From Chamaelirium japonicum (lineage: Eukaryota; Streptophyta; Magnoliopsida; Liliales; Melanthiaceae): a stretch of 64,000 nt of DNA. The stretch is from assembly GCA_947650365.1 (NCBI GenBank), contig CANTAL010000129.1:310001-374000 (forward strand), given 5' to 3'. Below are positions 5,131 through 64,000 of this stretch, one piece after another. A program made the position numbers and the translations under genes. The stretch's first letter is position 1, and each line of letters starts with the position of its first letter. The notes beneath the pieces were generated by a model. It had not been told where the DNA came from and searched no databases. It saw only the letters and a list, made by a program, of their open reading frames with translations.

Positions 5131-5955
5131 CATGAATGTATCCATTCTAATTCATTTGCACGATCCATTCTAATTCATTCGTATGATCCATTCTTATTCA
5201 TTCATACGATCCATTCTAATTCATTCGCACAATCCATTCTATTTTATTCGTTCGATCCATTCTAATTCATTCGTACGATCCATTCTAATTCGTTCATATG
5301 ATCCATTCTAATTCGTTCGTACGATCCATTCTAATTCGTTCGTACGATCCATTCTAATTTATTCGCACGATCCATTCTAATTCATTCGCACGATCTATTC
5401 TAATTCGTTCATATGATCCATTCTAATTCATTCGCACGAATGTATCCATTCTAGTTCATTCGTACGCTGCATTCTAATTCATTCCTACGCTCCATTCTTA
5501 TTCATCGCACAAATGTATCCCTTCTAACTCATTCGTACGATCCATTCAAATTCATTCGCACGATCGATTCTAATTCATTCGTATGATCCATTCTAATTCA
5601 TTCGTACGATCCATTCTAATTCTTTCGTACGATCCATTCTAATTCATTCGCACGATCTATTCTAATTCATTCGTACAATCCATTCTAATTCATTCGTATG
5701 ATCCATTCTAATTCATTCGCACTATCCATTCTAATTCATTCGTACGATCCATTCTAATTCATTCGTACGATCCATTCTAATTCATTCGTATGATCCATTC
5801 TAATTCATTCGCTCGAATGTATCCATTCTAATTCATTCGTACGATCCATTCTACTTCGTTCATACGATCCATTCTAATTCGTTCGTACGATCCATTCTAA
5901 TTCATTCGTACGATCCATTCTAATCCATTCGTATGATCCTTTCTAATTCATTCGT
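5131..5955 (-). repeat. R block in HOR copy 1, about 825 bp
   Basis: Odd monomers TTTTATTCG (5241), GTACGCTGC (about 5462) and a short TTATTCATCGC (about 5499) mark the HOR. Closes at GTAC 5954-5957 with ACAAATGAATTA. Confidence 0.9.
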
Positions 5956-6850
5956 ACAAATGAATTAGAATGGATCGTACGAATGAATTAGAATGGATTG
6001 TGCGAATAAATTAGAATGGATCGTATGAATGAATAAGAATGGATCGTACGAATGAATTAGAATGGATCGTGCAAATGAATTAGAATGGATACATTCGTCC
6101 GAATGAATTAGAATGGATCGTGCGAATGAATTAGAATGGATCGTACGAATGAATTAGAATGGATATATTTGAACGAATAAATTAGAATGGATCATACGAA
6201 TGAATTAGAATGGATAATACAAATGAATTAGAATGGATTGTGCAAATGAATTAGAATCGATCGTACGAATGAATTAGAATGGATCGTACGAATGAATTAG
6301 ATCGTACGAATGAATTAGAATGGATCATACGAATGAATTAAAATGGATACATTCAAAGGACTGAATTAGAATGGATCGTCCGAATTAATTAGAATGGATC
6401 GTACGAATGAATTTGAATGGATACATTTGTGTGAATGAATCTTAATGGATTATATGAATGAATTACAATGGATCGTATGAATGAATTATAATGGATCGTA
6501 CGAATGAATTAGAATAGCTCATACGAATGAATTAGAATGAATCGTACAAATGAATTAGAATGGTTACATTTCTGCGAATGAATTAGAATAGATCGTACGA
6601 ATGAATTAGAATGGATCATACGAATAAATTAGAATGGATCGTGCGAATGAATTAGAATGGATCGTACGAATGAATTAGAAAGGATCCACCAATGAGTTAG
6701 AATGGATCATACGAATTAATTAGAATGGATCGTACGAAAGAATTAGAATGGATTGTGCGAATGAATTAGAATGGATCTTATGAATGAATAAGAATGGATC
6801 GTACGAATGCATTAGAATGGATACATTCGTGCGAATGAATTAGAATGGAT
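5956..6850 (+). repeat. F block in HOR copy 1, about 895 bp
   Basis: Contains TCAAAGGACTG near 6353 and a short GATCCACCAATGAG monomer near 6685. Ends with the arms GAATTAGAATG and CATTCTAATTC around GATT. Confidence 0.9.
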
Positions 6851-7366
6851 TCATTCTAATTCATTCGCACGATCCATTCTAATTCATTCGTACGATCCAT
6901 TCTAATTCATTCGCACGATCTATTCTAATCCATTCGTACGATCCATTCTAATCCATTCGTACGATCCATTCTAATCCATTCGTACGATCCATTCTGATTC
7001 ATTCGCATGATCCATTCTAATTCATTCATACGATCCATTCTAATTCATTCGCTCGAATGTATCCATCCTAATTCATTCGTTCGATCCATTCTAATTCATT
7101 CGTACGATCCATTCAAATTCATTCACATGATCCATTCTAATTCATTCGTACGATCCATTCTAATTCATTCTCACAAATGTAACCTTTCTAATTCATTTGT
7201 ATGATCCATTCTAATTCATTCATACGATCCATTCTAATTCATTCGCACGTATGTATCCATTCTAATGCATTCGTACGATTCATTCTAATTCATTCGCACG
7301 ATCCATTCTAATTCATTCGTACGATCCATTTTTATTCATTCATACGATCCATTCTAATTCATTTGT
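6851..7366 (-). repeat. R block in HOR copy 1, about 516 bp
   Basis: Carries S1 at 7007-7204 and an AATGCATTCG marker near 7264. Returns to F at GTAC 7365-7368. Confidence 0.9.
7007..7204 (+). repeat. S1 block in HOR copy 1
   Basis: R-oriented S1, read on + as 65 open codons built from IHSNSF, SILIHS and DPFKFI segments. Equivalent blocks in the other HOR copies (about 12651 and 18291) carry a base change and lose the start or the length, so the frame is not kept between near-identical copies. Confidence 0.85.
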
Positions 7367-7841
7367 ACGAATGAATTAGAATGGATAGTACGAATGGATT
7401 AGAATGGATCGTGCGAATGAATTAGAATGGATACATTCGTACGAACGAATTAGAATGGATCGTATGAATGAATTAGAATGGATCGTACGAATAAATTAGA
7501 ATGGATATATTCAAGCGAATGAATTAGAATGGATCATACGAATGAATTAGAATGGATCATAGGAATGAATTAGAATGGATCGTACGAATGGATTAGAACG
7601 CATTGTACAAATGAATTAGAATGGATCGTACAAATGAATTAGAATGGATACATTTGTGCGAATGAATTAGAATGGATCGTACGAATGAATTAGAATGGAT
7701 CGTGTGAATGAATTAGAATGGATAGTGCGAATGAATTAGAATGGATCGTACGAATGAATTAGAATAGATCCACCGAATGAGTTAGAATGGATCTTATGAA
7801 TGAATTAGAATGGATCGTATGAACGAATTAGAATGAATCGT
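7367..7841 (+). repeat. F block in HOR copy 1, 475 bp
   Basis: Has GATAGTAC and GATCCACC variants. Ends at a J junction: GAATGAATC, GTAC, then GATCCATTC. Confidence 0.9.
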
Positions 7842-7912
7842 ACGATCCATTCTAATTCATTCGTCCGATCCATTCTAATTCATTCGCACGAATGTATCCA
7901 TTCTAATTCATT
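7842..7912 (-). repeat. Short R block, 71 bp
   Basis: About three monomers. They repeat the first three of the R block at 8319 (CGTCCG, then CGCACGAAT), then stop at TTCATTGAAAGAATTAG. Confidence 0.9.
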
Positions 7913-8318
7913 GAAAGAATTAGAATGGATCATACGAATGAATTAGAATGGATCTTGCGAATGAATTAGAATGGATTGTACGATAGAATGGATACATTCG
8001 TGCGAATAAATTAGAATGGATTGTACGAATGAATTAGAATGGATCGTGCGAATGAATTAGAATGAATCGTACAAATGAATTAGAATTGATCGTACGAATG
8101 GATTTGAATGGATATATTTGTACAAATAAATTAGAATGGATTGTACGAATAAATTAGAATGGATACATTCTTGCGAATAAATAAGAATGGATCGTATATT
8201 CGTACAAATAAATTAGAATGGATCATATGAATGAATTAGAATGGATCGTGCGAATGAATTAGAATGAATCGTACGAATGCATTAGAATGGATCGTACGAA
8301 TGAATTAGAATGAATCGT
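7913..8318 (+). repeat. F block in HOR copy 1, about 406 bp
   Basis: Contains a shortened monomer GTACGATAGAATGG, the 31-bp unit and the GAATGCATTAG marker. Ends at a J junction. Confidence 0.9.
8175..8205 (+). repeat. Rare 31-bp monomer (TATATTCGT type)
   Basis: GAATAAATAA then GAATGGATCG and TATATTCGTAC: a 23-mer whose GATCG is followed by TATATTCG before the closing TAC or TGC. Relatives are near 13838, 19478, 31847, 60387 and 61556. All follow a 28-mer ending CTTGC or CTTGTG, so the neighbours were copied with it. Three of the six are the equivalent sites of the 5.64 kb HOR. Confidence 0.85.
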
Positions 8319-9181
8319 ACGATCCATTCTAATTCATTCGTCCGATCCATTCTAATTCATTCGCACGAATATATCCATTCTAATTCATTCGTACAATCCA
8401 TTCAAATTCATTCGCATGATCCATTCTAATTCATTCGTATGATCCATTCTAATTCATTCCTATGATCTATTCTAATTCATTCGCTCGAATGTATCCATTT
8501 TAATTCATTCGTTCGATCCATTCTAATTCATTCGTACGATCCATTCAAATTCATTCGCATGATCCATTCTAATTCATTCGTACGATCCATTCTAATTCAT
8601 TCTCACGAATGTAACCTTTCTAATTCATTTGTATGATCCATTCTAATTCATTCGTACGATCCATTCTAATCCATTCGTACGATCCATTCTAATCCATTCG
8701 TACGATCCATTCTAATTCATTCGTACGATCCATTCTAATTCATTCTCCCAAATGTAACCTTTCTAATTCATTTGTACGATCCATTCTAATTCATTCGTAC
8801 GATCCATTCTAATCTATTCGTACGATCCATTCTAATCCATTCGTACGATCCATTCTAATTCATTCGCACAAATGTAACCATTCTAATTCATTCGTACGAT
8901 CCATTCTAATTCATTCCTATGATCCATTCTAATTCATTCGCACGAATGTATCCATTCTAATTCATTTGCACGATCCATTCTAATTCATTCCTATGATCCA
9001 TTCTAATTCATTCGTACGATCCATTCTAATTCATTCGCTCGAATGTATCCATTCTAATTTATTTGTACGATCCATTCTAATTCGTTCATACGATCCATTC
9101 TAATTCGTTCGTATGATCCATTCTAATTCATTCGTACGATCCATTCTAATCCATTCGTACGATCCATTCTAATTCATTTGT
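8319..9181 (-). repeat. R block in HOR copy 1, 863 bp between GTACs
   Basis: J right arm, S1-like block (about 8416-8620), two TAACCTTTC 28-mers with CCATTCG runs, then S2. Closes at TTTGTACAAA, a perfect palindrome. Confidence 0.9.
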
Positions 9182-10780
9182 ACAAATGAATTAGAATGGA
9201 TAGTATGAATGCATAAGAATGGATCGTACAAATGAATTAGAATGGATCGTGCGAATGAATTAGAATGAATCGTTCGAATGAATTAGAATGGATATATTCA
9301 AGCGAATGAATTAGAATGGATCGTACGAATGAATTAGAATGGATCAAAGGAATGAATTAGAATGGATCGTGCAAATGAATTAGAATGGATACATTCGTGC
9401 GAATGAATTAGAATGGATTGTAGGAATAAATTAGAATGGATCGTACGAATGAATTAGAATGGTTACATTCGTGCGAATGAATTAGAATGGATTGTACGAA
9501 TGTATTAGAGTGGATCATGCGAATGAATTAGAATTGATCATACGAATGAATTAGAATGGATCGTACGAACGAATTAGAATGGATCGTATGAACGAATTAG
9601 AATGGATCGTACGAATGAATTAGAATGGATACATTCGAGCGAATGAATTAGAATGGATCGTACGAATGAATTAGAATGGATCGTACGAATAATTTAGAAT
9701 TGATCGTACGAATGAATTAGAATGGATCATAGGAATGAATTAGAATGGATCATGCAAATGAATTAGAATGGATACATTCATGCGAATGAATTAGAATGGA
9801 TCGTAGGAATTAATTAGAATGGATCGTATGAATGAATTAGAATGGTTACATTCGTGCGAATGAATTAGAATGGATCGTACGAATGGATTAGAATGGATCG
9901 TACGAATGGATTAGAATTGATCGTATGAATTAGAATGGATCGTACGAATGAATTATAATGGATACATTCATACGACTGAATTAGAATGGATCGTGCAAAT
10001 TAATTAGAATGGATCATACGAATGAATTTGAATGGATACATTTGTGCGATGAATCTGAATGGATTGTATGAATGAATTACAGTGGATCGTACGGATGGAT
10101 TAGAATGGATCGTACGAATGAATTAGAATGGATCATACCAATGAATTAGAAAGGTTACATTCGTGAGAATGAATTAGAATGGATCGTACGAATGAATTAG
10201 AATGGATCATGCGAATGAATTTGAATGGATCGTACGAATGAATTAGAATAGATCGAACGAATGAATTAGAATGGATACATTCGAGCGAATGAATTAGAAT
10301 AGATCATAGGAATGAATTAGAATGGATCATACAAATGAATTAGAATGGATCGTGCGAATGAATTAGAATGGATCGTACGAATGAATTAGAATGAATCGTA
10401 TGAATGAATTAGAATGGATCGTACGAATGAATTACAATGGATCGTGCGAATGAATTAGAATGGATCGTACGAATGAATTAGAATAGCTCATACAAATGAA
10501 TTAGAATGAATCATACGAATGAATTAGAATGGTTACATTCGTGCGAATGAATTAGAATAGATCGTACGAATGAATTAGAATGGATCGTATGAATAAATTA
10601 GAATGGATCGTGCGAATGAATTAGAATGGATCGTGCGAATCAATTAGACTGGATCGTGCGAATGAATAAGAATGGATCTTACGAATGAATTAGAATGGAT
10701 CGTACGAATTAATTAGAATGGATACATTCGTGCGAATGAATTAGAATAGATCGTAGGAATGAATTAGAATGGATCATTTG
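9182..10780 (+). repeat. F block, 1.6 kb, spans HOR 1/2 boundary
   Basis: Holds S2 in F (about 9570-9860) and an S1 relative (about 10130-10320). One base is missing near 10048 (TGCGATGAATC). Confidence 0.9.
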
Positions 10781-11600
10781 CATGAATGTATCCATTCTAA
10801 TTCATTTGCACGATCCATTCTAATTCATTCGTATGATCCATTCTTATTCATTCATACGATCCATTCTAATTCATTCGCACAATCCATTCTATTTTATTCG
10901 TTCGATCCATTCTAATTCATTCGTACGATCCATTCTAATTCGTTTATATGATCCATTCTAATTCGTTCGTACGATCCATTCTAATTCGTTCGTACGATCC
11001 ATTCTAATTCATTCGCACGATCCATTCTAATTCATTCGCACGATCCATTCTAATTCTTTTATATGATCCATTCTAATTCATTCGCACGAATGTATCCATT
11101 CTAGTTCATTCGTACGCTGCATTCTAATTCATTCCTACGCTCCATTCTTATTTATCGCACAAATGTATCCCTTCTAACTCATTCGTACGATCCATTCAAA
11201 TTCATTTGCACGATCGATTCATTCGTATGATCCATTCTAATTCATTCGTACGATCCATTCTAATTCTTTCGTACGATCCATTCTAATTCATTCGCACGAT
11301 CTATTCTAATTCATTCGTACAATCCATTCTATTTCATTCGTACGATCCATTCTAATTCATTTGCACTATCTATTCTAATTCATTCGTACGATCCATTCTA
11401 ATTCATTCGTACGATCCATTCTAATTCATTCGTACGATCCATTCTAATTCATTCGCTCGAATGTATCCATTCTAATTCATTCGTACGATCCATTCTACTT
11501 CGTTCATACGATCCATTCTAATTCGTTCGTACGATCCATTCTAATTCATTCGTACGATCCATTCTAATCCATTCGTATGATCCATTCTAATTTATTCGTA
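10781..11600 (-). repeat. R block in HOR copy 2, about 820 bp
   Basis: Equivalent to 5131-5955, less the 6 bp TAATTC (CGATCGATTCATTCG near 11212). Closes at GTAC 11598-11601. Confidence 0.9.
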
Positions 11601-12493
11601 CAAATGAATTAGATTGGATCGTACGAATGAATTAGAATGGATTGTGCGAATGAATTAGAATGGATCGTATGAATGAATAAGAATGGATCGTACGAATGAA
11701 TTAGAATGGATCGTGCAAATGAATTAGAATGGATACATTCGTTCGAATGAATTAGAATGGATCGTGCGAATGAATTAGAATGGATCGTACGAATGAATTA
11801 GAATGGATATATTTGAACGAATAAATTAGAATGGATCATACAAATGAATTAGAATGGATAATACAAATGAATTAGAATGGATCGTGCAAATGAATTAGAA
11901 TCGATCGTACGAATGAATTAGAATGGATCGTACGAATGAATTAGATCGTACGAATGAATTAGAATGGATCATACGAATGAATTAAAATGGATACATTCAA
12001 AGGACTGAATTAGAATAGATCGTGCGAATTAATTAGAATGGATCGTACGAATGAATTTTAATGGATACATTTGTGCGAATGAATCTTAATGGATTATATG
12101 AATGAATTACAATGGATCGTATGAATGAATTAGAATGGATCGTACGAATGAATTAGAATAGCTTATACAAATGAATTAGAATGAATCGTACAAATGAATT
12201 AGAATGGTTACATTCCTGCGAATGAATTAGAATAGATCGTACGAATGAATTAGAATGGATCATACGAATAAATTAGAATGGATCGTGCGAATGAATTAGA
12301 ACGGATCGTACGAATGAATTAGAAAGGATCCACCAATGAGTTAGAATGGATCATACGAATGAATTAGAATGGATCGTACGAAAGAATTAGAATGGATTGT
12401 GCGAATGAATTAGAATGGATCTTATGAATGAATAAGAATGGATCGTACGAATGCATTAGAATGGATACATTCGTGCGAATGAATTAGAATGGA
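11601..12493 (+). repeat. F block in HOR copy 2
   Basis: Equivalent to 5956-6850, with GCTTATAC for GCTCATAC near 12162. Confidence 0.9.
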
Positions 12494-13010
12494 TTCATTC
12501 TAATTCATTCGCACGATCCATTCTAATTCAGTCGTACGATCCATTCTAATTCATTCGCACGATCCATTCTAATCCATTCGTACGATCCATTCTAATCCAT
12601 TCGTATGATCCATTCTAATCCATTCGTACGATCCATTCTAATTCATTCACACGATCCATTCTAATTCATTCATACGATCCATTCTAATTCATTCGCACGA
12701 ATGTATACATCCTAATTCATTCGTTCGATCCATTCTAATTCATTCGTACGATCCATTCAAATTCATTCACATGATCCATTCTAATTCATTCATACGATCC
12801 ATTCTAATTCATTCTCACAAATGTAACCTTTCTAATTCATTTGTATGATCCATTCTAATTCATTCGTACGATCCATTCTAATTCATTCGCACGTATGTAT
12901 CCATTCTAATGCATTCATACGATTCATTCTAATTCATTCGCACGATCCATTCTAATTCATTCGTACGATCCATTTTTATTCATTCATACGATCCATTCTA
13001 ATTCATTTGT
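12494..13010 (-). repeat. R block in HOR copy 2
   Basis: Equivalent to 6851-7366. The S1 relative has CGCACGAATG where copies 1 and 3 have CGCTCGAATG. Confidence 0.9.
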
Positions 13011-13485
13011 ACGAATGAATTAGAATGGATAGTACGAATGGATTTGAATGGATCGTGCGAATGAATTAGAATGGATACATTCGTACGAACGAATTTGAAT
13101 GGATCGTATGAACGAATTAGAATGGATCGTACGAATAAATTAGAATTGATATATTCGAGCGAATGAATTAGAATGGATCATGCGAATGAATTAGAATGGA
13201 TCATAGGAATGAATTAGAATGGATCGTACGAATGGATTAGAACGCATTGTACAAATGAATTAGAATGGATCGTACAAATGAATTAGAATGGATATATTTG
13301 TGCGAATGAATTAGAATGGATCGTACGAATGAATTAGAATGGATCATGCGAATGAATTAGAATGGATAGTGCGAATGAATTAGAATGGGTCATACGAATG
13401 AATTAGAATAGATCCACCGAATGAGTTAGAATGGATCTTACGAATGAATTAGAATGGATCGTATGAACGAATTAGAATGAATCGT
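13011..13485 (+). repeat. F block in HOR copy 2
   Basis: Equivalent to 7367-7841, the same 475 bp between switches, ending at J. Confidence 0.9.
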
Positions 13486-13556
13486 ACGATCCATTCTAAT
13501 TCATTCGTCTGATCCATTCTAATTCATTCGCACGAATGTATCCATTCTAATTCATT
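13486..13556 (-). repeat. Short R block, 71 bp, HOR copy 2
   Basis: Same three monomers and same TTCATTGAAAGAA return as at 7842, with one change (CGTCTG). Confidence 0.9.
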
Positions 13557-13962
13557 GAAAGAATTAGAATGGATCATACGAATGAATTAGAATGGATCGT
13601 GCGAATGAATTAGAATGGATTGTACGATAGAATGGATACATTCGTGCGAATAAATTAGAATGGATTGTACGAATGAATTAGAATGGATCGTGCGAATGAA
13701 TTAGAATGAATCGTACGAATGAATTAGAATGGATTGTACGAATGGATTTGAATGGATACATTTGTACAAATAAATTAGAATGGATTGTACGAATAAATTA
13801 GAATGGATACATTCTTGCGAATAAATAAGAATGGATCGTATATTCGTGCAAATAAATTAGAATGGATCATATGAATGAATTAGAATGGATCGTGCGAATG
13901 AATTAGAATGAATCGTACGAATGCATTAGAATGGATCGTATGAATGAATTAGAATGAATCGT
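13557..13962 (+). repeat. F block in HOR copy 2
   Basis: Equivalent to 7913-8318. The 31-mer ends CGTGC here. Confidence 0.9.
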
Positions 13963-14848
13963 ACGATCCATTCTAATTCATTCGTCCGATCCATTCTAAT
14001 TCATTCGCGTGAATATATCCATTCTAATTCATTCGTACAATCCATTCAAATTCATTCGCATGATCCATTCTAATTCATTCGTATGATCCATTCTAAATCA
14101 TTCCTATGATCTATTCTAATTCATTCGCTCGAATGTATCCATTTTAATTCATTCGTTCGATCCATTCTAATTCATTCGTACGATCCATTCAAATTCATTC
14201 GCATGATCCATTCTAATTCATTCGTATGATCCATTCTAATTCATTCTCACGAATGTAACCTTTCTAATTCATTTGTATGATCCATTCTAATTCATTCGTA
14301 CGATCCATTCTAATCCATTCGTACGATCCATTCTAATCCATTCGTACGATCCATTCTAATCCATTCATACGATCCATTCTAATTCATTCGTACGATCCAT
14401 TCTAATTCATTCTCACAAATGTAACCTTTCTAATTCATTTGTACGATCCATTCTAATTCATTCGTATCATCCATTCTAATCCATTCGTACGATCCATTCT
14501 AATCCATTCGTACGATCCATTCTAATTCATTCGCACGAATGTAACCATTCTAATTCATTCGTACGATCCATTCTAATTCATTCCTACGATCCATTCTAAT
14601 TCATTCGCACGAATGTATCCATTCTAATTCATTTGCACGATCCATTCTAATTCATTCCTATGATCCATTCTAATTCATTCGTACGATCCATTCTAATTCA
14701 TTCGCTCGAATGTATCCATTCTATCTTATTTGTACGATCCATTCTAATTCGTTCATACGATCCATTCTAATTCGTTCGTATGATCCATTCTAATTCATTC
14801 GTACGATCCATTCTAATCCATTCATACGATCCATTCTAATTCATTCGT
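13963..14848 (-). repeat. R block in HOR copy 2, 886 bp between GTACs
   Basis: As 8319-9181 plus exactly one extra 23-mer (CCATTCATACG near 14357). Confidence 0.9.
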
Positions 14849-16420
14849 ACAAATGAATTAGAATGGATAGTATGAATGCATAAGAATGGATCGTACGAAT
14901 GAATTAGAATGGATCGTGCGAATGAATTAGAATGAATCGTTCGAATGAATTAGAATGGATATATTCAAGCGAATGAATTAGAATAGATCGTACGAATGAA
15001 TTAGAATGGATCAAAGGAATGAATTAGAATGGATCGTGCAAATGAATTAGAATGGATACATTCGTGCGAATGAATTAGAATGGATTGTAGGAATAAATTA
15101 GAATGGATCGTACGAATGAATTAGAATGGTTACATTCGTGCGAATGAATTAGAATGGATCATACGAATGTATTAGAGTGGATCATGCGAATGAATTAGAA
15201 TTGATCATACGAATGAATTAGAATGGATCGTATGAATGAATTAGAATGGATCGTACGAACGAATTAGAATGGATCGTATGAACGAATTAGAATGGATCGT
15301 ACGAATGAATTAGAATGGATACATTCGAGCGAATGAATTAGAATGGATCGTATGAATGAATTAGAATGGATCGTACGAATGAATTAGAATTGATCGTACG
15401 AATGAATTAGAATGGATCATAGGAATGAATTAGAATGGATCATGCAAATGAATTAGAATGGATACATTCCTGCGAATGAATTAGAATGGATCGTAGGAAT
15501 TAATTAGAATGGATCATATGAATGAATTAGAATGGATCGTACGAATGGACTAGAATTGATCGTATGAATTAGAATGGATCGTACGAATGAATTATAATGG
15601 ATACATTCATACGACTGAATTAGAATGGATCATGCAAATTAATTAGAATGGATCGTACGAATGAATTTGAATGGATACATTTGTGCGAATGAATCTGAAT
15701 GGATTGTATGAATGAATTACAGTGGATCGTACGAATGGATTAGAATGGATCGTACGAATGAATTAGAATGGATCATACAAATGAATTAGAAAGGTTACAT
15801 TCGTGAGAATGAATTAGAATGGATCGTACGAATGAATTAGAATGGATCATGCGAATGAATTTGAATGGATCGTACGAATGAATTAGAATAGATCGAATGA
15901 ATGAATTAGAATGGATACATTCGAGCGAATGAATTAGAATAGATCATAGGAATGAATTAGAATGGATCATATAAATGAATTAGAATGGATCGTGCGAATG
16001 AATTAGAATGGATCGTACGAATGAATTAGAATGAATCGTACGAATGAATTAGAATGGATCGTACGAATGAATTACAATGGATCGTGCGAATGAATTAGAA
16101 TGGATCGTACGAATGAATTAGAATAGCTCATACAAATGAATTAGAATGAATCATACGAATGAATTAGAATGGTTACATTCGTGCGAATGAATTATAATAG
16201 ATCGTACGAATGAATTAGAATGGATCGTATGAATAAATTAGAATGGATCGTGCGAATGAATTAGAATGGATCGTGTGAATCAATTAGACTGGATCGTGCG
16301 AATGAATAAGAATGGATCTTACGAATGAATTAGAATGGATCGTACGAATTAATTAGAATGGATACATTCGTGCGAATGAATTAGAATAGATCGTAGGAAT
16401 GAATTAGAATGGATCATTTG
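14849..16420 (+). repeat. F block, 1.57 kb, spans HOR 2/3 boundary
   Basis: Lacks 51 bp near 15534 and gains a 23-mer near 15229 relative to 9182-10780. Has an S1 relative at about 15770-15960. Confidence 0.9.
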
Positions 16421-17239
16421 CATGAATGTATCCATTCTAATTCATTTGCACGATCCATTCTAATTCATTCGTATGATCCATTCTTATTCATTCATACGAT
16501 CCATTCTAATTCATTCGCACAATCCATTCTATTTTATTCGTTCGATCCATTCTAATTCATTCGTACGATCCATTCTAATTCGTTCATATGATCCATTCTA
16601 ATTCGTTCGTACGATCCATTCTAATTCGTTCGTACGATCCATTCTAATTCATTCGCACGATCCATTCTAATTCATTCGCACGATCCATTCTAATTCTTTC
16701 ATATGATCCATTCTAATTCATTCGCACGAATGTATCCATTCTAGTTCATTCGTACGCTACATTCTAATTCATTCCTACGCTCCATTCTTATTCATCGCAC
16801 AAATGTATCCCTTCTAACTCATTCGTACGATCCATTCAAATTCATTCGCACGATCGATTCATTCGTATGATCCATTCTAATTCATTCGTACGATCCATTC
16901 TAATTCTTTCGTACGATCCATTCTAATTCATTCGCATGATCTATTCTAATTCATTCATACAATCCATTCTAATTCATTCGTACGATCCATTCTAATTCAT
17001 TGGCACTATCTATTCTAATTCATTCGTACGATCCATTCTAATTCATTCGTACGATCCATTCTAATTCATTCGTACGATCCATTCTAATTCATTCGCTCGA
17101 ATGTATCCATTCTAATTCATTCGTACGATCCATTCTACTTCGTTCATACGATCCATTCTAATTCGTTCCTACGATCCATTCTAATTCATTCGTACGATCC
17201 ATTCTAATCCATTCGTATGATCCATTCTAATTCATTCGT
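16421..17239 (-). repeat. R block in HOR copy 3
   Basis: Same length and same 6-bp loss as copy 2. One monomer reads TTGGCACTATC near 17000. Confidence 0.9.
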
Positions 17240-19125: not shown

Positions 19126-19196
19126 ACGATCCATTCTAATTCATTCGTCCGATCCATTCTAATTCATTCGCACGAATGTATCCATTCTAATTCATT
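19126..19196 (-). repeat. Short R block, 71 bp, HOR copy 3
   Basis: Identical in plan to 7842-7912, with the same TTCATTGAAAGAA return. Confidence 0.9.
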
Positions 19197-41505: not shown

Positions 41506-41514
41506 GAATGAATT

Positions 41515-51621: not shown

Positions 51622-52671
51622 ATGGATCATATGAAAGAATTAGAATGGATCGTGCGAATGAATTAGAATGGATCGTACGAATGAATTATAATAGATTGTA
51701 CGAATAAATTAGAATAGATACATTTATGCGAATGAATTAGAATGGATCGTACGAATGGATTAGAATGGATCGTGCGAATGAATTAGAATGGATACATTCG
51801 TGCGAATGAATTAGAATGGACTGTATGAATGAATTAGAATGGATCGTACGAATGAATTAGATTGGTTACATTCGTGCAAATGAATTAGAATGGATCGTAC
51901 GAATGAATTAGAATGGATACATTCGAGCGAATGAATTAGAATAGATCGTACGAATGAATTAGAATGGATCGTACAAATGAATTAGAAAGGTTACATTTGT
52001 GAGAATGAGTTAGAATGGATCGTATGAATGAATTAGAATGGATTGCATGAATGAATTAGAATGGATCATACGAATGAATTGGAACAGATCGTACGAATGA
52101 ATTAGAATGGATACATTCATGCAAATGAATTAGAATGGATCGTACGAATGAATTAGAATGGATCATACGAACGAATTAGAATGGATCGTGCGAATGAATT
52201 AGAATGGATCGTAAGAATGAATTAGAATGGATCGTACGAATGAATTAGAATGGATACATTCGTGCGAATGAATTAGAATGGATCGTAGGAATGAATTAGA
52301 ATGGTTACATTCGTGCGAATGAATTAGAATGGATCGTACGAATGGATTAGAATGGATCGTATGAATGAATTAGAATGGATTGTGCGAATGAATTAGAATG
52401 GATATATTCGTGCGAATGAATTAGAATGGAATTTAAGAATGAATTAGAATGGATCCATTCGTACAAATGAATTAGAATGGATCGTACGAATGAATTAGAA
52501 TGGATCGTACGAATGGATTAGAACGCATTGTACGAATAAATTCGAATGGATCGTACGAATGGATAAGAATGGACCGTACAAATGAATTAGAATGGATCGT
52601 ACGAATGAATTAGAATAGCTCATACGAATGAATGAATCGTACGAACGAATTAGAATCGATACATTCAAATA
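51622..52671 (+). repeat. F block, 1.05 kb
   Basis: Ends in the segment duplicated from 2280-2526, with the ATTCAAATATATCC switch. Confidence 0.9.
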
Positions 52672-52760
52672 TATCCATTCTAATTCATTCGTATAAGCAA
52701 TTCAAATTCATTCGTACGATGAAATCTAATTCATTCGCACAAATGTATCTTTTCAAATTC
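52400..52760 (+). repeat. Dispersed duplicate of 2280-2610
   Basis: Contains the same ATTCAAATATATCC switch and the same truncated AATGAATGAATCG monomer. The left arm has lost one monomer (the GTACTAATG unit) relative to the copy near 2310. Confidence 0.75.
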
Positions 52761-53618
52761 ATTCGTACGATCCATTCTAATTCATTCGCATGATCCATTC
52801 TAATTCATTCTTACATTCCATTCTAATTCATTCGCACGAATGTATCCATTCTAATTCATTCACACAATCCATTCTATTCCATTCGTACGATCCATTCTAA
52901 TTCATTCGTACGATCCATTCTAATTCATTCCTATGATCCATTCTAATTCATTCGTACGAATGTATCCATTCTAATTCATTTGTATGATCCATTCTAATTC
53001 ATTCGTACGATCCAATCTAGTTCATTCGCACGATCCATTCTAATTCATTCGTACGATCCATTCTAATTCATTCGCACGATCCATTCTAATTCATTTGTAC
53101 GAATGGATCCATTCTAATTCATTAGTACGATCCATTCTAATTCATTCTTACATTCCATTCTAATTCATTCGCACGAATGTATCCATTCTAATTCATTCGC
53201 ATAATCCATTCTAATTCATTCGTACGATCCATTCTAATCCATTCGTACGATCCATTCTAATTCATTCGCATGAATGTATCCATTCTAATTCATTCGTACG
53301 ATCTGTTCTAATTCATTCGCACGATCCATTCTAATTCATTCGCACGAATGTATCCATTCTAATTCAATTGCACGATCCATTCTAATTCATTCCTATGATC
53401 CATTCTAATTCATTCGTACGATCCATTCTAATTCATTCGTCCGATCCATTCAAATTCATTCGTGCGAATGTAACCATTCTAATTCATTCGTACGATCCAT
53501 TCTAATTCATTCATACGATCCATTCTAATTCATTCGCACGAATGTAACCATTCTAATTCATTTGCACGATCCATTCTAATTCATTCCTATGATCCAATCT
53601 AATTCATTCGTACGATCG
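52672..53618 (-). repeat. R block, 947 bp
   Basis: The first 80 bp match the R arm at 2527. Ends at CGATCGAAATAGAATGG. Confidence 0.9.
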
Positions 53619-53822
53619 AAATAGAATGGATCGTGCGAATGAATTAGAATGGATCGTACGAATGAATTAGAATGGATCGTACAAATGAATTAGAAAGGTT
53701 ACATTTCTGAGAATGAATTAGAATGGATCGTACGAATGGATTAGAATGGATCGTACGAATGGATTAGAATGGATCGTAGGAATAGATTAGAATGGATCAT
53801 ACGAATGAATTATAATGGATCT

Positions 53823-54020
53823 TCATACAAATAAATTAGAAAGGTTACATTCGTGAGAATGAATTAGAATGGATCGTACGAATGAATTAGAATGGATCAT
53901 GCGAATGAATTTGAATGGATCGTACGAATGAATTAGAATGGATCGAACAAATGAATTAGAATGGATACATTCGAGCGAATGAATTAGAATAGATCGTAGG
54001 AATAAATTATAATGAATCAT
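53823..54020 (-). repeat. S1 block at the start of the 1.2 kb unit
   Basis: 65 codons. The 28-mer end (ATAAATTAGAAAGG) lies outside the tandem 1.2 kb unit, so copy B at 55061 has only the rest of S1, joined to an R tail at GTAC. Confidence 0.85.
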
Positions 54021-54248
54021 ACGACTGAATTAGAATGGATCGTACGAATGAATTAGTATGGATCATGCGAATGAATTAGAATGGATCGTACGAATGGAAT
54101 GGATCGTACGAATGAATTAGAATGGATCATACGAATGAATTAGAATAGATCGTACGAATGAATTTGAATGGATACATTTGTGCGAATGAATCTGAATGGA
54201 TTGTATGAATGAATTAGAATGGATCGTGCGAATGAATTAGAATCGATC

Positions 54249-54262
54249 GATCCATTCTAATT
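54249..54262 (-). repeat. Micro-inversion, 14 bp
   Basis: GATCCATTCTAATT in R lies within F. The return uses ATTCTAATTAGAAT, a perfect 14-bp palindrome. Copied at 55453. Confidence 0.85.
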
Positions 54263-54961
54263 AGAATCGATCGTACGAATAAATTAGAATGGATCGTACG
54301 AATGAATTAGATCATACGAATGAATTAGAATGGATCGTATGAATGAATTAAAATGGATACATTCATACGACTGAATTAGAATGGATCGTGCGAATTAATT
54401 AGAATGGATCGTACGAATGAATTTGAATGGATACATTTGTGCGAATGAATCTGAATGGATTGTATGAATGAATTACAATGGATCGTACGAATGAATTAGA
54501 ATGGATCGTACGAATGAATTAGAATAGCTCATACGAATGAATTAGAATGGATCGTACGAATGAATTAGAATGGATCATGCGAATGAATTTGAATGGATCG
54601 TATGAATGAATTATAATGGATCGTATGAATGAATAAGAATGGATCGTACGAATGAATTAGAATGGATCGTGCAAATTAATAAGAATGGATCGTATGAATG
54701 AATAAGAATGGATCGTACGAATGAATTAGAATGGATATAATCGAGCGAATGAATTAGAATGGATTAGAATGGATCGTACGAATGAATTAGAATGGATCGT
54801 ATGAATGAATTAGAATGGATCGCACAAACGAATTATAATGGATCGTACGAATGAATTAGAATGGATCGTACGAATGCATTAGAACGCATTGTACGAATGA
54901 ATTAGAATAGATCGTACGAATGGATTAGAATGGATCGTACGAATGAATTAGAATGGATCAC

Positions 54962-55058
54962 ATGATCCATTCTAATTCATTCGTACGATCCATTCCAATT
55001 CATTCTCACGAATGTAACCTTTCTAATTCATTTATACAATCAATTCTAATTCATTCGT
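54962..55058 (-). repeat. R tail of 1.2 kb unit A, 97 bp
   Basis: Four R monomers including a TAACCTTTC 28-mer. Turns back to F at GTAC 55057-55060. Confidence 0.9.
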
Positions 55059-56141
55059 ACGAATGAATTAGAATGGATCGTACGAATGAATTAGAATGGA
55101 TCATGCGAATGAATTTGAATGGATCGTACGAATGAATTAGAATGGATCGAACGAATGAATTAGAATGGATACATTCGAGCGAATGAATTAGAATAGATCG
55201 TAGGAATGAATTATAATGAATCATACGACTGAATTAGAATGGATCGTACGAATGAATTAGTATGGATCATGCGAATGAATTAGAATGGATCGTACGAATG
55301 GAATGGATCGTACGAATGAATTAGAATGGATCATACGAATGAATTAGAATAGATCGTACGAATGAATTTGAATGGATACATTTGTGCGAATGAATCTGAA
55401 TGGATTGTATGAATGAATTAGAATGGATCGTGCGAATGAATTAGAATCGATCGATCCATTCTAATTAGAATCGATCGTACGAATGAATTAGAATGGATCG
55501 TACGAATGAATTAGATCATACGAATGAATTAGAATGGATCGTATGAATGAATTAAAATGGATACATTCATACGACTGAATTAGAATGGATCGTGCGAATT
55601 AATTAGAATGGATCGTACGAATGAATTTGAATGGATACATTTGTGCGAATGAATCTGAATGGATTGTATGAATGAATTACAATCGATCGTACGAATGAAT
55701 TAGAATGGATTGTACGAATGAATTAGAATAGCTCATACGAATGAATTAGAATGGATCGTACGAATGAATTAGAATGGATCATGCGAATGAATTTGAATGG
55801 ATCGTATGAATGAATTATAATGGATCGTATGAATGAATAAGAATGGATCGTACGAATGAATTAGAATGGATCGTGCAAATTAATAAGAATGGATCGTATG
55901 AATGAATAAGAATGGATCGTACGAATGAATTAGAATGGATATATTCGAGCGAATGAATTAGAATGGATTAGAATGGATCGTACAAATGAATTAGAATGGA
56001 TCGTATGAATGAATTAGAATGGATCGTACAAACGAATTAGAATGGATCGTACAAATGAATTAGAATGGATCGTACGAATGGATTAGAATAGATCGTACGA
56101 ATGGATTAGAATGGATCGTACGAATGAATTAGAATGGATCA
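55059..56141 (+). repeat. F block in 1.2 kb unit B
   Basis: Same order as unit A, less one 23-mer near 56070. Confidence 0.9.
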
Positions 56142-56241
56142 CATGATCCATTCTAATTCATTCGTACGATCCATTCCAATTCATTCTCACGAATGTAACC
56201 TTTCTAATTCATTTATATGATCAATTCTAATTCATTCGTAC
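55061..56241 (+). repeat. 1.2 kb tandem unit, copy B (1181 bp)
   Basis: Directly abuts copy A at GTAC. It is 23 bp shorter, the missing 23-mer being the one near 54876. It ends at the same GTAC (56238-56241), but there the array carries on in R, whereas copy A turns back to F. The same end is therefore followed by opposite orientations. Confidence 0.9.
55453..55466 (-). repeat. Micro-inversion, 14 bp, second copy
   Basis: Same sequence and setting as 54249-54262, offset 1204 bp. Confidence 0.85.
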
Positions 56242-56531
56242 GATCCATTCTAATCCACTCGTACGATCCATTCTTATTCATTCCTACGATCCATTCTAAT
56301 TCATTCGCACGAATGTATCCATTCTAATTAATTTGCACGATCCATTCTAATTCATTCCTATGATCCATTCTAATTCATTCGTACGATCCAGTCTAATTTA
56401 TTCGCTCGAATGTATCCATTATAATTCATTCGTACGATCCATTCTAATTCGTTCATATGATCCATTCTAATTCATTCATATGTATCCATTCTAATTCATT
56501 CGCACGAATGTATCCATTCTAATTCATTCCT
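56142..56531 (-). repeat. R block, 390 bp
   Basis: R tail of unit B continuing into S2-like units. Returns to F at CCTACGAATGAATTA. Confidence 0.9.
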
Positions 56532-58585
56532 ACGAATGAATTAGAATGGATCGTACGAATGGATTAGAATGGATCGTACGAATGGATTAGAATGGATCGT
56601 ATGAATGAATTAGAATGGATCGTACAAATGAATTAGAAAGGTTACATTTGTGTGCGAATGAATTAGAATGGATCATACGAAAGAATTAGAATGGAACGTG
56701 CGAATGAATTAGAATGGATCATATGAATAAATTAGAATGGATCGTACGAATGAATTAAAATGGATACATTTGTGCGAATGAATTAGAATGGATCGTACAA
56801 ATGAATTAGAATGGATCGAACGAATGAATTAGAATGGATCGTACGAATGAATTAGAATGGATCGTACGAATGAATTAAAATGTATACATTTGAACGAATA
56901 AATTAGAATGGATCATACGAATGAATTAGAATGGATCGTACGAATGAATTAGAATGGATCGTGCGAATGAATTAGAATCGATCGTACGAATGAATTAGAA
57001 TGGATCGTACGAATGAATTAGAATGGATATATTCATGCGAATGAATTAGAATGGATCATACGAATGAATTAGACTGGATCGTACGAATAAATTAGAATGG
57101 ATACATTCATGCAAATGAATTAGAATGGATCGTACGAATGAATTAGAATGGATCATACGAATGAATTAGAATGGATCGTACGAATGAATTAGAATTGATC
57201 ATATGAATGAATTAGAATGGTTACATTCGTGCGAATGAATTAGAATGGATCGTACGAATGGATTAGAATGGATCGTACGAATGAATTAGAATGGATCGTG
57301 CGAATGAATTAGAATGGTTACATTCGTGCGAATGAATTAGAATGGATACATTCGTGCAAATGAATTAGAATGGGTTGTACGAATGAATTAGAATGGATCG
57401 TACGAATGAATTAGAATGGATACATTCGTACGAGTGAATTAGAATGGATCATACGAATGAATTAGAATGGATCGTGCGAACGAATTAGAATTGATCATAC
57501 GAATGAATTAGAATGGATCGTACGAATGAATTAAAATGGATACATTCATGCGAATGAATTAGAATGGATCGTACAAATGAATTAGAATGGATCGGACGAA
57601 TGAATTAGAATGGATCGTACGAATGAATTAGAATGGTTACATTCATGCGATTGAATTAGAATGGATCGTACGAATGAATTAGAATGAATCATACAAATAA
57701 ATTAGAATGGATCGTGCGAATGAATTTGAATGGATCGTACGAATGAATTAGAATGGATACATTCGTGCGAATGAATTAGAATGAATCGGGAGAATGAATT
57801 AGAATGGATCGGGCGAATGAATTAGAATAGATCGTGCGAATGAATTAGAATGGATCATACAAATAAATTAGAAAGGTTACATTCGTGAGAATGAATTAGA
57901 ATGGATCGTACGAATGAATTAGAATGGATCATGCAAATGAATTTGAATGGATCGTACGAATGAATAAGAATGGATCGTACGAATGAATTAGAATCGATCG
58001 TACAAATGAATTAGAAAGGTTACATTTGTGAGAATGAATTTTTGAATGGATCGTACGAATGAATTAGAATGGATCGAACAAATGAATTAGAATGGATACA
58101 TTCGTGCGAATGAATTAGAATGGATCGTGCGAATGAATTAGAATGGATACATTCATACGAATGAATTAGAATGGATCGAACGAATAAATTAGAATGGATA
58201 CATTCGTACGAATGAATTTGAATGGATCGTGCGAATGAATTAGAATGGATCGTATGAATGAATTAGAATGGATCATACGAATGAATTAGAATGGATCGTG
58301 AGAATGAATTAGAATGGATCGTACGAATGGATTAGAATGGATCGTACGAATGAATTAGAACGGATCGTACGAATGAATTAGAATGGATACATTTGTGCGA
58401 ATGAGTTAGAATGGATCATACGAATGAATTAGAATGGATCGTACGAATGAATTAGAATGGATCATACGAATGAAATAGAATGGATCGTGCGAATGAATTA
58501 GAATGGATCGTGGAAATGAATTAGAATGGATCGTAGGAATAAATTAGAATGGATCATACGAATGGATTAAAATGGATACATTCAT
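56532..58585 (+). repeat. F block, 2.05 kb
   Basis: Many CATTCATGC, CATTTGTGC and CATTCGTAC 28-mers, and an S1 relative at about 57855-58000. A broken unit GAATTTTTGAATGG lies near 58034. Flips at ATTCATACGATCC. Confidence 0.9.
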
Positions 58586-58991
58586 ACGATCCATTGTAAT
58601 TCATTCGCAGAATCCATTCTAATTCATTCGCATGAATGTATCCATTCTAATTTATTCGTATGATCCATTCTATTTCATTCGCATGATCCATTCTAATTCA
58701 TTCGTACGATCCATTCTAATTCATTCCTATGATCTATTCTAATTCATTTGTACGATACATTCTAATTCATTCGCACAATCCATTCTAATTCATTCGTATG
58801 ATACATTCTTATTTATTCGCTCGAATGTATCCATTCTAATTCATTCGTTCGATCCATTCTAATTCATTTGTACGATGCATTCTATTTCATTTGTACAATC
58901 CATTCTAATTCATTTGTACGATCCATTCTAATTCATTCATATAATCTATTCTAATTCATTCGCTCGAATGTATCCATTCTAATTCATTCGT
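58586..58991 (-). repeat. R block, 406 bp
   Basis: Returns to F at ATTCGTACGAAT (GTAC 58990-58993). Confidence 0.9.
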
Positions 58992-59116
58992 ACGAATGAA
59001 TTAGAATGGATTGTACGAATGAATTAGAATGGATATATTCGTGCGAATGAATTAGAATGGATCGTACGAATGAATTAGACTGGATCGAACGAATGAATTA
59101 GAATGGATACATTCGT
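58992..59116 (+). repeat. F block, 125 bp
   Basis: Five units ending in a 28-mer ATTCGTAC that runs straight into R. Confidence 0.9.
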
Positions 59117-59299
59117 ACGATCCATTCTAATTCATTCGTACGAATCCATTCTAATTTATTCGTACAAATGTATTCATTCTAATTCATTTGTACGATCCAT
59201 TCTAATTCATTCGTACGATCCATTCTAATCCATCCGTACGATCCATTCTAATCCATACGTACGATCCATTCTAATTCATTCGCACGAATATATCCATTC
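59117..59299 (-). repeat. R block, 183 bp
   Basis: Returns to F at CATTCGTGCGAATG, the same inverted repeat that each 28-mer makes with the next unit. Confidence 0.9.
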
Positions 59300-60504
59300 G
59301 TGCGAATGAATTAGAATGGATCGTATGAATGAATTAGAATGGATCGTACAAATGAATTAGAATGGATCGTACGAATGGATTAGAATGGATCGTACGAATG
59401 AATTAGAATGGATCATACAAATGAATTAGAAAGGTTATATTCGTGCGAATGAATTAGATTGAATCATACGAATGAATTAGAATGGATCGTACGAATGAAT
59501 TAGAATGGATACATTTGTACGAACAAATTAGAAATGAATTGGAATAGATCATACGAATGAATTAGAATACATCATGTGAATGAATTAGAATGGATCGTAC
59601 GTTTGAATTAGATTGGATTGTGCGAATGAATTAGAATGGATACATTCGTGCGAATGAATTAGAATAGATCGTATGAATGAATTAGAATGGATCGTATAAA
59701 TGAATTAAAATGGATCGTACAAATGAATTTGAATGGATACATTCGTGCGAATGAATTAGAATGGATCGTTCAAATGAATTAGAATGGATCGTACGAATGA
59801 ATTAGAATGGATCGTACGAATGAATTAGAATGGATCATGCGAATGAATTAGAATGGATCGTACAAATGAATTAGAATGGATATATTTGAACGAATAAATT
59901 AGAATGGATCATACGAATGAATTAGAATGGATCGTACAAATTAATTAGAATGGATACATTCGTGCGAATGAATTAGAATGGATTGTATGAATGAATTAGA
60001 ATAGAGTGTACAAATGAATTAGAATGGAGTGTACGAATGAACTAGAATGGATACATTCGTGCGAATGAATTAGAATGGATCATATGAAAGAATTAGAATG
60101 GATACATTCGAGCGAATAAATTAGAATGGATCGTACGAATGAATTAGAATGGATCATACGAATGAATTATAATGGATCGTGCAAATGAATTAGAATGGAT
60201 TGTACGAATGAATTAGAATGGATCGTGCGAATGAATTAGAATGAATCATACGAATGCATTAGAATGGATCGTACGAATGAATTAAAAATTAGAATGGATA
60301 TATTTGTACGAATAAATTAGAATGGATTGTACGAATGAATTAGAATGGATACATTCTTGCGAATAAATTAGAATGGATCGTATATTCGTGCAAATAAATT
60401 AGAATGGATGATACGAATGAATTAGAATGGATCGTGCGAATGAATTAGAATGAATCATACGAATGCATTAGAATGCATCGTACGAATGAATTAGAATGAA
60501 TCGT
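59300..60504 (+). repeat. F block, 1.2 kb
   Basis: Broken units AACAAATTAGAAATG near 59521 and AATTAAAAATTAG near 60279. 31-bp unit at 60387. Ends at J with GTAT for GTAC. Confidence 0.9.
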
Positions 60505-61007
60505 ATGATCCATTCTAATTCATTCGACCGATCCATTCTAATTCATTCGTACGAATGTATCCATTCTAATTCATTCGTACAATCCATTCTAATTCATTCG
60601 CATGATCCATTCTAATTCATTCGTATGATCCATTCTAATTCATTCCTACGATCTATTCTAATTCATTCGCTTGAATGTATCCATTCTAATTCATTCGTTC
60701 GATCCATTCTAATTCATTCGTACGATCCATTCAAATTCATTCGCATGATCCATTCTAATTCATTCGTACGATCCATTCTAATTCATTCTCACGAATGTAA
60801 CCTTTCTAATTCGTTCGTACGATCCATTCTAATTCATTCGTAAGATCCATTCTAATCCATTCGTACGATCCATTCTAATTCATTCGCACGATCCATTCTA
60901 ATTCATTCGCACAAATGTATCCATTCTAATTCATTCGTACAATCCATTCTAATTCATTCGCATGATCCATTCTAATTTATTCGTACGATCCATTCTAATT
61001 CATTTGT
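60505..61007 (-). repeat. R block, 503 bp
   Basis: J right arm (CGACCG for CGTCCG) then S1. Closes at TTTGTACGAACG. Confidence 0.9.
60625..60843 (+). repeat. S1 block near the right end
   Basis: 72 codons. The closing TGA is displaced because TCGTTCGTACG replaces TCATTTGTATG. It sits right of a J junction, as do those at about 8420, 14060, 19700 and 26059. Confidence 0.83.
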
Positions 61008-61679
61008 ACGAACGAATTAGAATGGATCGTATGAACGAATTAGAATGGATCATACGAATGAATTAGAATAGATATATTTGTGCGAATGAATTAGATTGCA
61101 TCGTACGAATGAATTTGAATGGATTGTACGAATGAATTAGAATGGATCGTACGAATAAATTATAATAGATCATAAGAATGAATTAGAATAGATCGTACGA
61201 ATGAATTAGAATGGATCGTACGAATAAATTAGAATGGATCGTGCGAATGAATTAGAATGGATCGTACGAATGAATTAGAATGGATCCACCGAATGAGTTA
61301 GAATGGATCATGCGAATGAATTAGAATGGATCGTACGAATGAATTAGAATGGATATATTCGTGCGAATGAAATAGAATTGATCGGACGAATGAATTAGAA
61401 TTGATCGTGCGAATGAATTATAATGGATCATACGATTGAATTTTAATGGATCGTACGAATAAATTAGAATGGATACATTTGTGCGATGAATAAGAATGGA
61501 GCGTACGAATGAATTAGAATGGATATATTCTTGTGAATAAATTAGAATGGATCGTATATTCGTGCAAAAAAATTAGAATGGATCAAACGAATGAATTGGA
61601 ATGGATCGTGCGAATGAATTAGAATGAATCGTACGAATGCATTAGAATGGATCGTACGAATGAATTAGAATGAATCGTA
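61008..61679 (+). repeat. F block, 672 bp
   Basis: GATCCACC marker at 61284, an ATTGCAT monomer near 61094, a 31-bp unit at 61556, and J with GTAT. Confidence 0.9.
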
Positions 61680-61803
61680 TGATCCATTCTAATTCATTTA
61701 TACGATCCATTCTAATTCATTCGCACGATCCATTCTTATTCATTCTTACGATCCATTCTAATTCATTCATACAAACCATTCTAATTCATTTGCACGAATG
61801 TAT
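61680..61803 (-). repeat. R block, 124 bp
   Basis: Short R stretch ending at the CGAATGTATCATACG switch. Confidence 0.9.
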
Positions 61804-62090
61804 CATACGAATGAATTAGAATGGATCATGCGAATGAATTAAAATGGATCGTACAAATGAATTAGAATGGATCGTGCGAATGAATTAGAATAGATCGTAC
61901 GAACGAATTAGAATGGATCGTACGAATGAATTAGAATGGATCGTATGAACGAATTAGAATGGATCGTACGAATGAATTAAAATGGATACATTCGAGCGAA
62001 TGAATTAGAATGGATCGTACGAATGAATTAGAATGGATCATAGGAATGAATTAGAATGGATCATGCAAATGAATTAGAATGGATACATTC
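61793..62090 (+). repeat. Dispersed duplicate of 39596-39905
   Basis: Same ordered markers as the copy 22 kb upstream, including the R to F switch at CGAATGTATCATACG. A whole segment with its junction was copied, not single monomers. Confidence 0.75.
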
Positions 62091-62595
62091 GTGCGAATGA
62101 ATTAGAATGGATCGTAGGAATGAATTAGAATGGACCGTACGAATGAATTAGAATGGTTACATTCGTGCGAATGAATTAGAATGGATCGTACGAATGGATT
62201 AGAATGGATCGTATGAATGGATTAGAACGCAATGTACGAATGAATTAGAATAGATACATTTGTGCGAATGAATAAGAATGGATCGTACGAATGAATTAGA
62301 AAGGATCGTACGAAAGAATTAGAATGGATCGTACGAATGAATTTGAATGGATCATACGAATGAATTAGAATCGATCGTGAGAATGAATTAGAATGGATCG
62401 TACGAATGAATTAGAATGGATACATTCGAGCGAATGAATTAGAATAGATCGTAGGAATGAATTAGAATGGATCATATGAATGAATTAGAATGGATCGTGT
62501 GAATGAATTAGAATGGATTGTACGAATGAATTAGAATGGATACATTCGTGCGAATGAATTAGAATGGATCGGACGAATGAATTAGAATGGATCGT
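61804..62595 (+). repeat. F block, 792 bp
   Basis: Begins with the segment shared with 39596. Ends at J-prime after GATCGGACG. Confidence 0.9.
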
Positions 62596-63010
62596 ACGAT
62601 TCATTCTAATTCATTCACACGATCCATTCTAATGCATTCGTACGATTCATTCTAATTCATTCACATGATTCATTCGAATGGATTAGAATGAATTAGAATA
62701 TACGATCCATTCTAATTCATTCGTACAATGCGTTCTAATCCATTCGTACGATCCATTCTAATCCATTCGTACGATCCATTCTAATTCATTCGCACGAATG
62801 TAACCATTCTAATTCATTCGTACGATCCATTCTAATTCATTCCTACGATTCATTCTAATTCATTCGCACGAATGTATCTATTCTAATTCATTTCCACGAT
62901 CCATTCTAATTCATTCCTAAGATCCATTCTAATTCATTCGTATGATCCATTCTAATTCATTCGCACAATCCATTCTAATTCATTCGTACGATCCATTCTA
63001 ATTCATTTGT
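62596..63010 (-). repeat. R block with a 26-bp F insert
   Basis: J-prime right arm, then a tiny F stretch at 62675-62700 (GAATGGATTAGAATG), then R to GTAC 63009-63012. Confidence 0.88.
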
Positions 63011-64000
63011 ACGAATGAATTAGAATGGATCGTACGAATGAATTAGAATGGATCGTACGAACGAATTCGAATGGATCGTATGAACAAATTAGAATGGATT
63101 GTACGAATGAATTAGAATGGATACATTCAAGCGAATGAATTAGAATCGATCGTACGAATGAATTAGAATGGATCGTACGAATGAATTAGAATGGATCGTA
63201 CGAATGAATTAGAATGGATCGTATGAATGAATTAGAATGGATTGTACGAATGAATTAGAATAGATCGTGCAAATGAATTAGAATGGATCGTACGAAAGAA
63301 TTAGAATGGATCGTACGAATGAATTAGAATGGATCATACGAATACATTAGAATCGATCGTACAAATGAATTAGAATGGATCGTACGAATGAATTAGAATG
63401 GATACATTTGTGCGATGAATAAGAATGGAGCGTACGAATGAATTAGAATGGAGGGTACGAATGAACTAGAATGGATACATTCGTGCGAATGAATTAGAAT
63501 GGATCATATGAAAGAATTAGAATGGATCGTGCGAATGAATTAGAATGGATCGTGCGAATGAATTAAAATGGATCATATGAACTAATTAGAATGGATCATA
63601 CGAACGAATTAGAATGGATCGTGCAAATGAATTAGAATAGATCGTATGAATAAATTAGAATGGATCGTACGAATGAATTAAAATGGCTACATTTGTGCGA
63701 ATGAATTAGAATGGACCATACGATTGAATTTGAATGGATCGTACGAATGAATTAGAATGGATACATTTGTGCGATTTAATAAGAATGGATCATGCGAATA
63801 AATTAGAATGGATACATTCGTGCGAATGAATTAGAATGGATTGTGCGAATGAATTAGAAGGGATTATGCGAATGAATTAGAACGCATTGTACGAATGAAT
63901 TAGAATAGATCGTACGAATGGATTAGAATGGATCGTACGAATGAATTAGAATGGATCGTACGAATGAATTAGAATGGATCGTGCGAATAAATTAGAATGC
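63011..64000 (+). repeat. F block running off the window
   Basis: Ordinary F monomers with a short CATTTGTGCGATGAATAAG unit near 63402, also seen at 40661 and 61470. The array does not end here. Confidence 0.9.

Follow-up and report, generated by a model that had tools for sequence, protein, structure and literature searches.

Why does a satellite array that runs in both orientations turn, again and again, at one position of its repeat unit? The question is raised by a 64-kb window, i.e. the whole stretch of 64,000 nucleotides analysed here (positions 310,001 to 374,000 of contig CANTAL010000129.1). The entire window is one degenerate 23-bp satellite together with a 28-bp form, present in a forward (F) and a reverse (R) orientation, with the 23-bp unit spanning 1-63999 in Tandem Repeats Finder and around 61% of the array in F orientation. 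Our analysis shows that the orientation switches gather at an 8-bp palindrome of the unit, TCGTACGA, and suggests that short stretches of sequence shared by the two orientations probably guide them. The two monomers are given below.

1..64000, no strand: 23-bp satellite GAATGGATCGTACGAATGAATTA (F) and its reverse complement (R), from the hidden Markov model (HMM) and Tandem Repeats Finder.
24..51, plus strand: example of the 28-bp monomer, consensus GAATGGATACATTCGTGCGAATGAATTA, from the HMM.

The window was decoded with an HMM containing F and R forms of the 23-bp and 28-bp monomers, with emissions trained on the window itself. The trained model placed 70 orientation switches, compared with 68 by an untrained version. 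Each switch was assigned a register, defined as the sum of the phases of the two joined monomers, which is unchanged when the break slides within shared sequence. The TCGTACGA register holds 41 of the 70 raw switches against a chance expectation of 1/23, and it does so in both directions (21/35 F-to-R and 20/35 R-to-F). The next commonest registers hold 3 switches for F-to-R, where three registers share this count, and 5 for R-to-F. As a control, 300 simulated joins were decoded and their register was correct in 97.7%; all 12 joins truly in the palindrome register gave the 12 palindrome calls, with no false call among the other 288. The blocks of switched orientation are often only tens to hundreds of bases long. 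A 24-bp F piece within R at 62675-62699 appears with the trained HMM only, and could be a mini-switch or a decoding artefact.

An earlier, sequence-only reading of this window had placed most switches on one position and listed 22 junctions. For every one of the 22 coordinates, the HMM has a switch no more than 3 bp away that belongs to the TCGTACGA register, so the list is accurate; it is also selective, as it covers 22 of the 70 switches and omits 19 further palindrome switches and 29 non-palindrome ones. The words quoted for these junctions occur in exact form twice (GGATCGTACGATCC) and eight times (CATTCGTACGAATG) in the window, the remaining palindrome junctions being variants. Nor is the palindrome intact in every monomer, as had been stated: 851 exact TCGTACGA copies stand against around 2179 23-mers and 494 28-mers in the trained decoding of the window.

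The same reading had proposed comparing the junction phases with a uniform distribution after removing copied junctions. We compared the flanks outward from each switch in both orientations, using a likelihood score against a position-specific background, for which the 95th and 99th percentiles over 4000 random in-phase pairs were 2.4 and 5.7 nats, respectively. Identity clustering of 120-bp arms had been dropped as too noisy (background median 84%, 99th percentile 94%), and the anchored likelihood extension was therefore used instead. At two-arm thresholds of 10, 6, 4 and 2.4, the palindrome accounts for 28/48, 23/43, 20/40 and 15/35 classes, respectively, and for 13/31 and 16/32 with two further linking rules. 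Additional hand merging by shared core variant leaves 15/32 (p ~1e-12) or 12/29 (p ~1e-9) relative to 1/23. All collapse rules stay far above 1/23, and the phase bias of the switches is real after collapse; what does not hold is the word 'most', since the share falls to about half once copies are collapsed (20/40, or 12/29 at the strictest).

Recurrent, conserved inversion sites are thus present, with 12 of 29 strict classes in one register and large families of copies. The largest family has 15 members in the strictest collapse, 14 of them with the GAATGAATC variant on one arm, and the same switch series recurs up to three times along the window (e.g. at 5125, 10775 and 16415).

7838..7845, no strand: F-to-R switch on TCGTACGA, largest junction family, from the HMM and collapse.
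5125..22251, plus strand: long-range copies at ~5640-5650 bp spacing, from flank comparison.

A non-palindrome R-to-F family with the core GTATCATAC is found in both orientations at 1288, 27364, 39272, 39611 and 61802. By eye, the junctions at 6851, 7912, 39319, 2521 and 50522 look like palindrome switches that may have lost 4-14 bases at or beside the centre.

What, then, sets the position? It had been regarded as a choice that was not forced. This is largely wrong: when consensus F and R monomers are compared, a shared run of 8 bp exists in one of the 23 registers, and the runs in the others reach at most 4 bp. TCGTACGA reads identically on both strands and is therefore the only long word common to F and R, which is the simplest account of the shared position and one that the sequence-only reading missed; its claim of a shared position itself survives collapse. 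We next measured the homology at each switch as the overlap between the longest pure-F piece and the longest pure-R piece, taken from the window's own variants. The median is 10 bases for palindrome switches, 7 for non-palindrome switches and 3 for random joins. At least 8 bases of homology are found in 17 of 29 strict classes, compared with 8.5% of random joins, and in 7 of 17 non-palindrome classes. The 17 non-palindrome families also exceed random non-palindrome joins (p = 0.0001 with an 11-base context and 0.007 with a 14-base context). That these families are homology-rich as well indicates that homology guides the switches generally and is mostly located at the palindrome.

We consider it probable that blocks changed orientation through short-homology exchange, or through replication template switching, between opposite repeats. 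Two TCGTACGA copies are direct and inverted repeats simultaneously, even where all monomers of a tandem array point the same way. Exchange over TCGTACGA, lengthened to CATTCGTRCGAATG when 28-mers are involved, would produce F-to-R and R-to-F switches at one phase; these would then be copied by block duplication, and some would decay through small deletions. The enzymes and the timing of such an exchange are what we infer rather than observe.

Individual junctions offer a closer view. Of 48 switches examined, 17 had unswitched parental copies of both arms that could be aligned at the chosen score limit, and alignment to the parents puts the break inside the shared word at 33371, 25938, 43264 and 61006. 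Two further junctions can be traced to rearrangements.

53848..56243, plus strand: 1.2-kb tandem duplication, 96.1% identity, from self-BLAST.
41515..41516, no strand: non-palindrome F-to-R switch, deletion derivative, from arm matching.

The two copies of the duplication lie at 53848-55062 and 55052-56243, and their seam is the R-to-F switch 55057, where an R 23-mer meets an F 28-mer and the two share CATTCGT. The left arm of the switch runs on in R orientation at 56238 and the right arm in F orientation at 53853, within a 28-mer. Switch 55057 required no inversion, only an exchange between an R monomer and an F monomer. Self-BLAST at 350 bp and 93% gave just 5 rows, without the 5.6-kb copies seen by flank comparison, and was therefore used for this duplication alone. 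The arms of 41515 match 43230 and 43373, which are 143 bp apart and flank the palindrome switch 43264, making 41515 a deletion product.

The alternative that survives best is that fold-back priming is the main source of the switches, which we regard as possible but not the likelier course. Neighbouring TCGTACGA words would pair as a hairpin and the 3' end would be extended on its own strand, giving an inverted duplication offset by one monomer. In the predicted fold of an F-F dimer, an 8-bp TCGTACGA stem does form between neighbouring units around a 15-nt loop (-6.8 kcal/mol, z -3.4), and the predicted dimer fold with a 28-mer has an energy of -8.7 (z -4.4). Two switches share the one-monomer offset.

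1020..1092, plus strand: F-to-R switch 1067, candidate one-monomer fold-back, from stem search and arm comparison.
33129..33591, no strand: F-to-R switch 33371, inverted-copy arms, from arm comparison.

At 1067, a 29-bp exact inverted repeat encloses a 15-nt loop, and the rare block GATTGCAT, with 9 copies in the window, is present on both arms; this arm match is equalled at 3 of 2621 palindrome sites. Switch 33371 has a right arm that matches the left arm one 23-bp monomer back, in reverse complement, at 96.4% identity over 220 bp; this match is equalled at 7 of 2605 other palindrome sites. The anchored test at one-monomer offset gave 11.3 nats for 33371 and 9.6 nats for 1067, with the 99% point of the null at 3.4. 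However, this geometry is seen at just 2 of the 41 palindrome switches, and its p values are mixed across tests: taking the best over all offsets, p is 0.025 for 33371 and 0.037 for 1067 against a null that includes true copies, and wider scans fail to single out 1067. Switch 55057, moreover, is a duplication seam and not a fold-back. The longest exact stem was rejected as a fold-back criterion because it does not discriminate, random palindrome-register joins having a median of 23-24 bp.

The offset also bears on the earlier suggestion of a hairpin tip at GTAC, which finds no match in the arms: zero-offset inverted-copy arms were seen at no switch in the anchored test, and the two candidates are offset by one monomer. 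With such an offset, TCGTACGA would form the paired stem around a 15-nt loop rather than the hairpin tip. Folding predicted for a 91-nt piece around 33371 likewise favours a hairpin with zero offset. At most, then, fold-back onto the next monomer is suggested as the first source of reversed copies, and exchange would act on blocks afterwards.

The 28-bp monomer may hold a trace of a related event. An extra ACATT ahead of CGTRCGAATG sets it apart from the 23-mer and completes CATTCGTGCGAATG, a 14-bp near-palindrome with the same centre as the 23-mer palindrome, thereby lengthening the central palindrome. The 28-mer may have arisen at the palindrome site as a small templated inverted insertion. 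The 28-mers (~494 copies) are interspersed among 23-mers across the whole window, giving larger periods of 97, 120 and 143 bp. A more tentative proposal is that any palindromic word of at least 8 bases in a short monomer could act as an orientation gate, in which a hairpin primes the first reversed copies and F and R blocks then exchange. If so, the sequence of the monomer would decide between a one-way and a two-way satellite array, and the 28-bp form would be a small product of fold-back, frozen in place, its extra ACATT completing the palindrome.

Several results weigh against homology-guided exchange with a fold-back start. Among joins with at least 10 bases of homology, 9 of 13 strict classes are at the palindrome, compared with 25% or ~41% in simulations (p 0.001 and 0.04, respectively); there may be an extra effect of the palindrome beyond homology. 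The switches at 7912, 47819, 49260 and 50522 have only 1-2 bases of homology, and those at 53617 and 54960, in the palindrome register, have 2-3. Both the core merging and the homology rates of the strict collapse (12/29) were set by hand. Fold-back is weak in a wide scan (33371, p 0.064; 1067, p 0.86), and in a gapped-identity scan 33371 reached p 0.005 and 1067 did not rank among the 16 best. Lastly, among adjacent pairs in which not both switches are at the palindrome, a single clean inversion fits 0/24 bounding R segments and 0/22 bounding F segments, indicating that the events have been overwritten by reshuffling and mostly cannot be reconstructed. The idea that one inversion made both neighbouring switches was set aside, as it fits palindrome-palindrome adjacent pairs alone.

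We also considered whether the palindrome switches go back to a single ancient inversion that created one switch in each direction, F-to-R and R-to-F, all the others being copies with flanks reshuffled by unequal exchange. This seems rather unlikely. It is consistent with the GAATGAATC core, found on one arm in either orientation in 14 of 21 F-to-R palindrome switches, and assuming a single origin per direction for the palindrome junctions removes the phase excess (2/19, p = 0.2); the flanks alone are compatible with such deep common descent. However, distinct cores persist, including F 28-mer to R 23-mer joins (58578, 59109), the GATTGCAT arms of 1067, GGATCACATGATCC (54960, 56141) and the recent duplication seam 55057, and homology is raised at 17 other families too.

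It is improbable that the array is broken at TCGTACGA by a nicking enzyme, recombinase or binding protein for which this word is the site. A nick-site or protein-site role had been proposed from the sequence, and two results agree with it: the palindrome is used above the homology expectation, and 7 of 13 HMM-placed insertions in 23-mers fall inside it (coordinates 7, 10 and 12) where ~4 are expected. Most insertions in 23-mers are of 1 base and may be decayed 28-mers. Deletion ends, in contrast, are not enriched. Among same-orientation deletions from 23-mer to 23-mer (49 events of 23 distinct types, 28-mer indels excluded), 11 of 46 ends lie inside the palindrome against 14 expected, and this absence of preference argues against a general cut site. 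Non-palindrome switches likewise follow homology, and the breaks are not confined to a defined site as in a site-specific inversion system, with 29 of 70 switches in other registers. A special-site reading of TCGTACGA is not needed. Overall, the earlier observation was real yet overstated, and the roles proposed for the site are less well supported. Assembly or read artefacts from foldback chimeric reads are very improbable, for while satellite arrays are difficult to assemble and the switches are known from the assembly alone, near-perfect zero-offset inverted arms would be expected, the anchored test found none, and many switches recur with diverged flanks.

As for the array itself, the C and G positions in the two CpG steps are among the most mutated of the monomer (C8 8% T, G9 21% A, C12 10% T, G13 12% A). 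Such transitions to TpG and CpA are consistent with decay of methylated CpG and thus point to a eukaryote, and we infer that the array is eukaryotic heterochromatin. A11 is also frequently replaced by G (17%). No exact monomer match was found in viral contig or genome contig collections, and 33300-36300 had no match in plasmids. Of the 3 papers containing any of four 13-letter pieces of the monomer, none concerned a satellite, although absence from these sources is not absence from print.

Orientation changes in satellites are known already, and their origin is seldom visible because identical repeats conceal the breakpoints. In this array the monomers have diverged enough for each switch to be phased, and the phase tracks the word common to both strands. 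As a natural record of how homology guides orientation switching, the array serves well. It leads to the prediction that, across satellites, the positions and rates of switches follow the longest word common to a monomer and its reverse complement, and to the caution that a fixed switch position need not mean a protein site.

Among known systems, the macro-dyad satellites of Tribolium madens come close. These arrays are reported to be divided into subarrays of direct and inverted orientation (PMC13081366); their inversion sites are recurrent and conserved, their subunits contain short inverted repeats, and one of the satellites has been proposed to involve ectopic recombination. They share with the present array a single monomer in both orientations and recurrent inversion sites. 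Their unit, however, is ~110 bp with derivatives, compared with 23 bp here; their subarrays are of kilobase length, whereas blocks here often measure tens to hundreds of bases; and their conserved inversion sites contain diverged subunits, whereas the switch here lies on a palindromic word of the unit. A second likeness is to yeast ODIRA, in which template switching is reported to produce inverted junctions (PMC10766183) at nearby pre-existing inverted repeats of 2-14 bp, with a total size of 40-80 bp preferred. A tandem TCGTACGA pair resembles such a short interrupted inverted repeat, and the junctions here likewise sit at shared words (at least 8 bases in 17/29 strict classes vs 8.5% at random). 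However, the TCGTACGA pair of neighbouring monomers spans 31 bp, below the preferred size, and ODIRA is described there as origin-dependent and seen as inverted triplications, whereas the present array is known from its sequence. By this analogy the array would work like a short-inverted-repeat switch inside a satellite, and we do not claim identity with ODIRA itself. Finally, very short templated inverted duplications are reported to arise via foldback at yeast breaks (PMC11724301); those insertions follow induced single breaks, whereas the present case is a natural satellite. The array looks like a clear instance of a kind of repair or copying error already known from other systems rather than a new machine.

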